A stretch of 64,000 nucleotides of DNA, taken from assembly GCF_034008635.1 (NCBI RefSeq), contig NZ_CP125378.1, positions 5,332,501-5,396,500 of the forward strand, in the 5' to 3' direction. Source of the stretch: Pseudomonas sp. P8_229 (lineage in GTDB: Bacteria > Pseudomonadota > Gammaproteobacteria > Pseudomonadales > Pseudomonadaceae). The notes under the pieces are model-generated. The model searched no databases and was not told the DNA's origin. It worked only from the letters and a program-made list of their open reading frames with translations. Positions 4,454-6,663 of the stretch are shown here, one piece after another (the stretch's first letter is position 1; every line of letters begins with the position of its first letter). The translations under genes and the position numbers were made by a program.

Positions 4454-5548
4454 ATGTCACTCACCCTGGAGCACGTCAGCCGTACCGTCGAGGGCCAGAC
4501 CTGGATCGACGATGCGTGCCTGAAATTCGAACCCGGATCCTTCAACGTTCTGCTCGGGCGGACCCTGTCCGGCAAGACCAGCCTGATGCGATTAATGGCC
4601 GGGCTCGATAAGCCCGACAGCGGCCGCATCCTGATGAACGGCGTCGACGTCACCCAACGGCCGGTGCGTCTGCGCAACGTGTCGATGGTCTATCAGCAGT
4701 TCATCAACTACCCGACCATGACCGTGTTCGAAAACATCGCCTCGCCGTTGCGTCAGGCCGGTGTCGCCAAGGAACTCATCCACAGCAAGGTCGAAGAAAC
4801 CGCGCGGATGCTGCGCATCGAGAAGTTCCTGCAGCGCTTTCCACTGGAGCTTTCCGGCGGCCAGCAGCAGCGCACGGCCATGGCCCGGGCGCTGGTCAAG
4901 GATGCCGAACTGATTCTGTTCGATGAGCCGCTGGTCAACCTCGATTACAAGCTGCGCGAAGAACTGCGCCAGGAAATGCGCGAGCTGTTCAAGGCGCGCC
5001 ACACCATCGCCATCTACGCCACCACCGAACCCAACGAAGCGCTGGCACTCGGCGGCACCACGACGATTCTTCACGAAGGCCGAGTGATTCAGAGCGGCCC
5101 GTCGACTTCGGTGTATCACCAGCCGCAAACCGTGCTCGCCGCCGAATTGTTCTCCGAACCACCGATCAACCTGATGCCCGGGCGCATCGCCGGTAACGAA
5201 GTCAGTTTCGCCAACTTTGTGCACTTCCCGTTGAACGTCGATCTGCGCCCGGTGGGCGAGGGCGAGTTCCGTTTTGGTGTGCGTCCCAGCCACATCTCGT
5301 TGGTGCCGAGCAACGATGACGACCTCGAACTGGCGGTCACCGTCGAAGTCGCCGAGATCAGCGGTTCGGAAACCTTCCTGCACGTGCGCAACGAGCATTT
5401 CCTGTTGGTGCTGCACCTGCCCGGCGTTCACGAATACGACGTCGATGCGCCGATCCGCATTTACATCCCGACCCACAAACTGTTTGTTTTCGATGCGCAG
5501 GGCCGTCTGGTGCAAGCACCGGGCCAACGTGTCGCGAGGGTTGCCTGA
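4454..5548 (+). CDS. glpS: ABC importer ATPase, GlpS-like
   Basis: One of two ATPase subunits (364 residues) of a carbohydrate/polyol-type ABC importer resembling the rhizobial glycerol system GlpSTPQUV. The signature LSGGQQQR (133-140) and Walker B LILFDE (153-158) are canonical. Walker A is GRTLSGKT (35-42) rather than GxSGxGK(S/T), and the switch position is Thr191 (YATTEPNEA) where His is normal. A C-terminal regulatory (TOBE/OB) region follows from about residue 240. Its partner shows the complementary pattern, so the pair probably forms one active and one degenerate ATP site. Its TGA overlaps the ATG of the next gene. The glycerol assignment is by resemblance; other polyols are possible. 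Confidence 0.8.
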   Translation: MSLTLEHVSRTVEGQTWIDDACLKFEPGSFNVLLGRTLSGKTSLMRLMAGLDKPDSGRILMNGVDVTQRPVRLRNVSMVYQQFINYPTMTVFENIASPLRQAGVAKELIHSKVEETARMLRIEKFLQRFPLELSGGQQQRTAMARALVKDAELILFDEPLVNLDYKLREELRQEMRELFKARHTIAIYATTEPNEALALGGTTTILHEGRVIQSGPSTSVYHQPQTVLAAELFSEPPINLMPGRIAGNEVSFANFVHFPLNVDLRPVGEGEFRFGVRPSHISLVPSNDDDLELAVTVEVAEISGSETFLHVRNEHFLLVLHLPGVHEYDVDAPIRIYIPTHKLFVFDAQGRLVQAPGQRVARVA

Positions 5549-6663
5549 TGGCCGAAATCCGTTTGCAGCACCTCGCCCACAGCTACAGCAAAACCCCGGG
5601 CGGCGCGGAGGATTACGCGATCCGCGAGATGGATCACGTCTGGGAGCAGGGCGGCGCTTACGCTCTGCTCGGGCCGTCGGGTTGCGGCAAGTCGACCTTG
5701 CTAAACATCATTTCCGGCCTGCTCAGCCCCTCGCAAGGGCATGTGCTGTTCGATGGCAAAGCGGTCAACGACCTGACCCCGGAGAAGCGCAACATCGCCC
5801 AGGTGTTCCAGTTCCCGGTGGTCTACGACACCATGAGCGTGTTCGATAACCTGGCTTTCCCCTTGAGAAATCAGGGCATGGCCGAGGCGAAGGTGCACAG
5901 TAAAGTGCAGGAAATCGCCGAAGTCCTCGACCTGCAAAACCTGCTGAGCAAGAAGGCCCGTAACCTTACCGCCGACGAAAAGCAGAAAGTATCCATGGGC
6001 CGGGGTCTGGTGCGCGACGACGTCTCGGCGATCCTCTTCGATGAACCGCTGACGGTGATCGACCCGCACCTGAAGTGGAAGCTGCGGCGCAAGCTCAAGC
6101 AGATCCACGAGCAGTTCAACATCACCATGGTCTACGTCACCCACGATCAACTGGAAGCCTCGACTTTCGCCGACAAGATTGCGGTGATGTACGGCGGCCA
6201 GATCGTCCAGTTCGGCACGCCACGGGAATTGTTCGAGCGGCCGAGCCACACCTTTGTCGGCTACTTCATCGGCAGCCCGGGGATGAACCTGATCGAGGTG
6301 CAGCCACGACCGGGCGGGGTCGGTTTCGCTTCGACGCACCTGCCACTGTCCGACGCCCTGCAGCGGCATATCGAACACGGTCAGTGGAAAAACCTGAAGG
6401 TCGGCATCCGCCCGGAATTCATTCACGTCTGGGACGAGCCGTTTGATGAGGCGATGCAGGCCCGGGTGGTACACGTCGAAGACCTTGGCACCTACAAGAT
6501 CCTCACCCTCGACCTCGATGGCGCGCCGCTGAAGGTGCGTCTGGCCGAAGACAAACCGGTGCCGCAGGGCACGGCGTACATCAGTTTTCCGGCGCAGTGG
6601 CTGATGGTCTATGCCGACGAATTCCTCCTGGAAGACACCGACCCTACCGAGGTGCAGCCATGA
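5548..6663 (+). CDS. glpT: ABC importer ATPase, GlpT-like
   Basis: Second ATPase (371 residues) of the importer. Walker A GPSGCGKST (42-50), the Q-loop VFQFP and the switch histidine His199 (YVTHDQLEA) are canonical, and Walker B is AILFDE (161-166). The signature, normally LSGGQ, is replaced by LTADEKQ (140-146), and the D-loop reads VID. This protein should supply the catalytic Walker/His half while its partner supplies the signature half. A C-terminal MalK-like regulatory region is present. It starts on the ATGA overlap with glpS and ends on an ATGA overlap with the first permease, so the two are tightly coupled in translation. The symbol refers to the ABC gene, not the glycerol-3-phosphate antiporter also called GlpT. 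Confidence 0.8.
   Translation: MAEIRLQHLAHSYSKTPGGAEDYAIREMDHVWEQGGAYALLGPSGCGKSTLLNIISGLLSPSQGHVLFDGKAVNDLTPEKRNIAQVFQFPVVYDTMSVFDNLAFPLRNQGMAEAKVHSKVQEIAEVLDLQNLLSKKARNLTADEKQKVSMGRGLVRDDVSAILFDEPLTVIDPHLKWKLRRKLKQIHEQFNITMVYVTHDQLEASTFADKIAVMYGGQIVQFGTPRELFERPSHTFVGYFIGSPGMNLIEVQPRPGGVGFASTHLPLSDALQRHIEHGQWKNLKVGIRPEFIHVWDEPFDEAMQARVVHVEDLGTYKILTLDLDGAPLKVRLAEDKPVPQGTAYISFPAQWLMVYADEFLLEDTDPTEVQP

Follow-up and report, generated by a model that had tools for sequence, protein, structure and literature searches.

We find that a six-gene importer operon in Pseudomonas sp. P8_229 encodes two different MalK-type ATPases, here called A and B, whose departures from the canonical ABC motifs complement each other. 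Every deviation falls in one of the two composite ATP sites that an A-B pair would form, and every element of the other site is canonical. This asymmetry is real, strictly conserved among relatives and directly testable. We consider it probable that A and B pair obligately as a heterodimer on permeases P and Q of a GlpSTPQ(U)V-type importer, in which site 1 would be degenerate and site 2 would drive the cycle, with glycerol as the most likely substrate.

Two adjacent ATPases with complementary motifs

The genome is a single contig of 6,365,050 bases. The window, which is the whole stretch of 64,000 nucleotides that was analyzed, encodes proteins whose named nearest relatives are from Pseudomonas. 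Six co-directional genes encode ATPase A, ATPase B, the permeases P and Q, a DUF2160 membrane protein and the binding protein V (Table 1). The reading frame of A runs a few bases into that of B, and the latter likewise into that of P, which makes it probable that the two ATPases are produced together. The domain match in the DUF2160 protein spans about positions 8353-8616 and its true start is uncertain; this gene is the anchor of our first operon sample. Judging from its position, the divergent sigma-54-dependent gene is a possible regulator of the operon. No GlpR relative was detected within the 64-kb window at an E value of 1e-15, so regulation is probably unlike that of the glpR-flanked operons described below. 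Past the operon, on the minus strand at positions 10644-11608, a PIN-domain toxin-like ORF and a Phd-like antitoxin ORF were recognized by eye.

Table 1. Genes and ATPase motifs of the importer locus, in window coordinates
Feature	Position	Strand	Remark
Sigma-54-dependent regulator, divergent	2222..4072	-	PF00158
ATPase A (GlpS type)	4454..5548	+	Intact signature; Thr191 for switch His; Leu at Walker A position 4
A Walker A GRTLSGKT, residues 35-42	4556..4579	+	Degenerate site
A signature LSGGQQQR, residues 133-140	4850..4873	+	Complete site
A H-loop YATTEP, residues 188-193, Thr191	5015..5032	+	Degenerate site
ATPase B (GlpT type)	5548..6663	+	Walker A, Glu and His199 intact; signature and D-loop degenerate
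B Walker A GPSGCGKS, residues 42-49	5671..5694	+	Complete site
B signature place LTADEKQK, residues 140-147	5965..5988	+	Degenerate site
B Walker B and D-loop AILFDEPLTVID	6028..6063	+	Glu intact; D-loop TVID
B H-loop YVTHDQ, His199	6133..6150	+	Complete site
Permease P (GlpP type)	6660..7526	+	PF00528; start overlaps B stop (ATGA)
Permease Q (GlpQ type)	7536..8336	+	PF00528; identity 71-98% over 84 operons
Small membrane protein, DUF2160, glpU position	8290..8619	+	PF09928, 1.2e-36
Substrate-binding protein V (GlpV type), 580 residues	8667..10409	+	67% identity to pRL9 GlpV

The initial annotation had described A as combining a normal signature with an altered Walker A and a threonine for the switch histidine, and B as combining a normal Walker A and His199 with LTADEKQ in place of the signature; all of these residues were found exactly where it had placed them. 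In addition, A retains FDEP with the catalytic Glu158 and a VNLD D-loop. FDEP, here with Glu166, is retained in B as well, and its D-loop reads TVID (residues 169-172), a deviation beyond those already listed. Neither subunit has the full canonical motif set, A being without the switch His and the Gly at Walker A position 4, and B without the signature. These absences are divergence inside the MalK fold family and not evidence against descent from it.

In an ABC dimer, the D-loop acts on the opposite site. Each site otherwise consists of Walker A, Walker B and the H-loop of one subunit together with the signature of the other (PMC7756269), and by this head-to-tail rule the Walker and H-loop motifs of A meet the signature of B, so that all deviations lie in one composite site. 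The second composite site, consisting of Walker A, Glu and His199 of B and the LSGGQ and D-loop of A, has all canonical elements. As far as sequence goes, the two ATPases are asymmetric.

The predicted fold of A, from a single-chain model, is that of MalK with its C-terminal regulatory domain, and the single-chain model of B is poor (pLDDT 61.7). A GlpS-like asymmetric MalK-type pair did not appear among the 50 structural matches listed for A, which excludes nothing. The best NCBIfam match is UgpC, for which the two proteins score 259 and 291 bits, well below the model cut-off of 432, so assignment to UgpC proper was rejected. As a background, we took the 60 best matches to B, 30 from the same genome and 30 from genome G071, and removed A and B of the window and the B of G071, which left 57 ATPases (28 and 29 from the two genomes, respectively). 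The switch His, a G-x-x-G-x-G-K Walker A and both signature glycines are present in 57/57, so the defects of A and B are more than chance. Other two-ATPase pairs account for four of these 57, including one with LAGGD.

Conservation across operons and the proposed heterodimer

Relatives in our first sample were found via the neighboring DUF2160 domain, so they were not picked by the trait under study. The domain scored above the cut-off in 85 of 398 Pseudomonadota genomes, spread over 49 genus groups and including the genome of the window. Genes for A, B, P, Q, the DUF2160 protein and V are all present in each of the 84 operons beyond our own, in the order ABPQDV in 77 and VABPQD in 7, the former being the order in the window and in the Rhizobium plasmid pRL9 introduced below. 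A and B occur one to one in 84/84 operons, and the projected gap from the stop of A to the start of B is at most 30 nt in 83/84.

With the window included, the switch His position of A is occupied by Thr in 80/85 and by Ser in 5/85, and LSGGQ, NLD, DEP and the Walker A GK are each found in 85/85; with DEP invariant, the degenerate site never loses its catalytic Glu. Walker A position 4 of A is more variable (Leu in 67, Gln in 10, Gly in 5, Ser in 2 and His in 1), which makes the Walker A change the weakest and loosest of the defects. In B, the His, a GxxGxGK Walker A, DEP and the TVID D-loop are each present in 85/85, and both signature glycines are absent in 85/85, the pair being replaced by AD (78), PD (6) or AA (1). 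The His defect of A and the signature defect of B thus occur together in 85/85, and every element of the complete site is intact in 85/85. This conservation over 85 pairs supports the heterodimer put forward in the initial annotation, with one complete composite site and another that would be devoid of both His and signature. The accompanying idea that the deviations stand or fall together among GlpS and GlpT homologues holds without exception for His and signature; the Walker A change is absent in 5/85 pairs while the rest stays, so that the idea, taken literally, fails for this one residue.

Those five operons (L060, L063, L064, L068 and L081) are exactly the ones in which the H-loop of A has Ser and not Thr (5/5). 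They also have SPDN at the signature place of B and carry V upstream of A. Six further DUF2160 matches are partial (L086-L091) and come from a different importer, whose only MalK-like ATPase is canonical in 6/6; a small DUF2160-like protein accompanies single-ATPase importers too. The idea that these six represent the symmetric ancestor is unsupported, as their ATPases fall among ordinary single-ATPase rows of the trees.

The second sample was anchored on the binding protein in named genomes and comprises the best 80 of at least 596 matching stretches, mostly from Alphaproteobacteria by record titles. Both ATPases are present in 78 of these best 80 loci, and in the two misses (L274 and L296) the contig ends 0.3 and 1.6 kb upstream of V. 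Within the best 80, Thr replaces His in 78/78 A proteins, B keeps its His and has a glycine-free signature in 78/78, and LSGGQQQR is readable in 77/78 A proteins. The A frame of L259 is the only one of the 78 without coverage of Walker A and signature, which may reflect a frame break or a sequencing error. Since the counted operons have a common ancestor and some genomes may be in both samples, the 85 and 78 pairs are not 85 + 78 independent events.

Complementary defects in 85/85 pairs, combined with one A beside one B, point to a heterodimer with one complete site. It is very improbable that the two are unpaired, each forming homodimers or partnering another MalK-like ATPase of the cell. Shared ATPases do exist, with MsmX placed in six Bacillus subtilis importers (PMC11466899), but A and B stand side by side in all 84 operons and wherever sequence reaches in the best 80 loci, and their defects are exactly complementary. 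An A2 or B2 homodimer would have no complete site, and the A-B pairing is favored for this reason.

In the proposed heterodimer, site 1 would be formed by Walker A, Glu and H-loop of A with the signature and D-loop of B. With the Walker A Lys and catalytic Glu preserved, it probably binds and holds ATP; in the absence of the switch His, of the two signature glycines and of a regular D-loop, it would hydrolyze ATP poorly or slowly, or not at all. Site 2, to which B contributes Walker A, Glu and His199 and A contributes LSGGQ and the D-loop, is predicted to fire and to drive the cycle. From these motifs we infer a heterodimer, retention of ATP in site 1 and one hydrolysis per cycle. For the exporter Pdr5, ATP has likewise been proposed to stay in the deviant site throughout the cycle (PMC8421411). 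Making the deviant site of Pdr5 canonical is reported to lower coupling or activity (PMC7756269).

Retention of the Glu and Walker A Lys of A in 85/85 makes slow hydrolysis in site 1 possible, and it also speaks for a heterodimer in which both sites hydrolyze, with another residue replacing the His, the Glu and Lys of A sufficing and LTADEKQ clamping the gamma phosphate. Also in its favor, single Glu mutants of either subunit of the peptide importer DppDF kept similar ATPase activity (PMC12136057). However, the motifs of DppD and DppF are described as functional (PMC12136057), unlike those of A and B, and the loss of His and both signature glycines from one composite site is seen in 85/85 pairs. 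Human degenerate sites, moreover, are reported always to have an altered signature motif (PMC7756269). We regard hydrolysis at both sites as improbable, though it is the more serious of the alternatives.

Selection on the two genes was assessed by comparing the operon pairwise, with simple Nei-Gojobori counts, to nine operons from its own genus or family group. In these nine comparisons, dN/dS was 0.06-0.19 for A, 0.08-0.22 for B, 0.03-0.09 for Q and 0.06-0.16 for V. A and B are therefore under purifying selection, somewhat looser than that on Q and, in most comparisons, on V. With dN/dS this low, a decaying pseudogene is unlikely. Tolerated drift would be a subtler account: after a duplication, each subunit would have lost what its partner covered, with no mechanistic gain and with ATP binding at site 1 optional. 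The variable Walker A position (Leu, Gln, Gly, Ser or His), as expected under loose constraint, the somewhat faster evolution of A and B, and the partial decay of the same motif in other two-ATPase importers all fit this account. Against it stand the low dN/dS and the constancy of Thr/Ser, the glycine-free signature and TVID in 85/85 operons from 49 genus groups, and we judge it somewhat less probable still than hydrolysis at both sites.

Other two-ATPase importers of the MalK type

We looked in eleven genomes for adjacent MalK-type pairs other than GlpS/GlpT, as a selection and not a census; eight pairs were fetched, picked by eye among the matches listed, and two further pairs brought the number to ten. 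Two nearby ATPases at L185 were excluded, as the permease matches indicate, by eye, two separate importers. In nine pairs (L183, L184, L186, L187, L188, L190, L191, L204 and L205), subunit 1 has L[SA][GA]GD and subunit 2 has LSGGE; the His is present in all, and the change is slight and one-sided.

The tenth pair (L189, identical to L192, genome G274) has LSVNILQR in subunit 1, and GPPLSGKST and MDDP in subunit 2, with all deviations in one site. With its subunit 2 as query, 5 of 289 genomes of the class yielded close relatives; one of the five is the query genome, and identity is 53-60% in the remaining four. Further relatives are carried by four plasmids of Pararhizobium, Rhizobium, Sinorhizobium and Pseudosulfitobacter. 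In the resulting set of nine operons (L189/L192, L193-L196 and L307-L310), the LSVN signature is found in 9/9, the partner Walker A has lost Gly4 (GPP[LAS]) in 8/9, and Glu is replaced by Asp in 5/9. The His is retained in both subunits; the subunit 1 frame of L193 stops short of Walker A. Two annotated plasmid records give the gene order LacI, binding protein, two permeases, two ATPases, oxidoreductase and isomerase. The LSVN type appears to be a second, sugar-type importer lineage with its own one-sided degeneracy.

Since the LSVN operons have both His, loss of the signature without loss of the His does occur outside the GlpS/GlpT family. The coupling of the deviations raised in the initial annotation holds inside the glycerol importer family and not in these other two-ATPase MalK-type importers, where the signature is altered with both His in place; judged by motifs, His and signature appear to be coupled only within the GlpS/GlpT family. 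The asymmetry as such is not confined to the glycerol importer.

How these lineages relate was addressed with trees of chosen rows (92 and 77), in which the motif columns were kept. B, the LSVN type and the GD/GE type cluster together at 91/85, and A sits on a long stem with no firm position. In AU tests, no alternative grouping is rejected: A may join GE2 and SVN2 (p 0.31) or B (p 0.25), all two-ATPase rows may group together (p 0.44), and B may join SVN1 (p 0.60, at a likelihood slightly above that of the free tree). The two-ATPase lineages may have a single origin or several, as either fits the trees and AU tests.

One reading, which might as readily fail as hold, is that two-ATPase MalK-type importers form a branch of their own, where the decay of one ATP site has reached different depths and perhaps took place more than once. 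The L[SA][GA]GD/LSGGE pairs would then represent mild decay, the sugar importers with LSVN, a GPP[LAS] Walker A and in part a Glu-to-Asp change a further depth, and the glycerol importer the deepest. If this is true, single-site ATP-driven import would be a standing alternative to the two-site MalFGK2 cycle. The graded relatives offer natural stages between symmetric and asymmetric motors.

Glycerol as the likely substrate and relation to known systems

The operon is of the GlpSTPQ(U)V type, and the gene set A-B-P-Q-DUF2160-V of the window recurs, its order unchanged, on pRL9 of Rhizobium johnstonii 3841. On pRL9 the set is embedded between glpR and glpD on one side and glpK on the other (glpR, glpD, A, B, P, Q, DUF2160, V, glpK). 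Its A has GPTLAGKTS, NLSGGQQQR and VYATTEPSEA, and its B has GPSGCGKTT, GLTADQKQK, TVID and VYVTHDQTEA. Such an operon, glpSTPQUV, was assigned to glycerol import in Rhizobium leguminosarum VF39 by Ding et al. 2012, as cited in PMC7912956. Judged from the strain 3841 pRL9 locus, the VF39 system matches the window in gene order and content and in the defect pattern of GlpS and GlpT. The window V is 67% identical to the pRL9 binding protein, and the names GlpS and GlpT used in the initial annotation fit through this homology.

In contrast to pRL9, the window has neither the flanking glpR-glpD nor glpK, and has a sigma-54 regulator upstream instead. Among relatives, glpD adjoins the operon in 61/84 of the DUF2160 sample and in 67/80 loci of the binding-protein sample (best 80 of at least 596), and at least one of glpR, glpD and glpK does so in 64/84. 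Because none of the three gave a match in the 64-kb window at an E value of 1e-15, we infer the substrate from homology; elsewhere in the genome, genes related to glpK and glpD are located at 1.616 and 1.619 Mb. Glycerol is the likely substrate. For Ruegeria pomeroyi, a "glycerol ABC transporter" is listed with two ATP-binding proteins (PMC9870897), and the Cupriavidus version is reported as dispensable for growth on glycerol (PMC7912956).

With its apparently single complete site, this widespread MalK-fold importer would make it possible to ask, in a readily cultured laboratory bacterium, whether one or two hydrolyses are needed per substrate, and growth on glycerol offers a readout for the role of the silent second site. 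In fold, permease pair and binding protein it resembles the MalK/UgpC-type systems MalFGK2 and SugABC. The MalK homodimer has two complete sites, whereas the window importer has two different ATPases. The peptide importer DppDF also has two different ATPases, and MalK is described as a homodimer in PMC7756565.

Exporters with a degenerate site (TAP1/2, TM287/288, BmrCD and Pdr5) resemble A/B in that one composite site is deviant and its signature altered. In Pdr5, NBS1 has Tyr for His and the partner signature reads LNVEQ (PMC7756269, PMC8421411). However, the degenerate-site Glu, kept in A, is often altered in such exporters, to Asp, Met or Ser (PMC7756269) and to Asn in Pdr5 (PMC8421411), and TAP1/2-like systems export. 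Importers with one degenerate ATP site are described as well, namely RbsA for ribose and NupO for nucleosides (PMC11466899). Unlike A/B, these have two ATPase domains per chain, the second with a Walker A devoid of Lys, and they are listed as type II, not as MalK type (PMC11466899). To the statement in the initial annotation that MalK-type importers are nearly always symmetric it should be added that symmetry is not universal among importers as a whole, as RbsA and NupO show (PMC11466899), and that the signature is altered in other two-ATPase MalK-type pairs.

Among the matches listed from the open-licence literature, no paper described a degenerate site for GlpS/GlpT or for any other MalK-type heterodimer. 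Degenerate sites as such are already known from exporters and from fused importers such as RbsA; new here are the mild one-sided changes in nine pairs and the LSVN lineage of nine operons among two-ATPase MalK-type importers. A lopsided design known mainly from export pumps is kept here in every complete relative examined.
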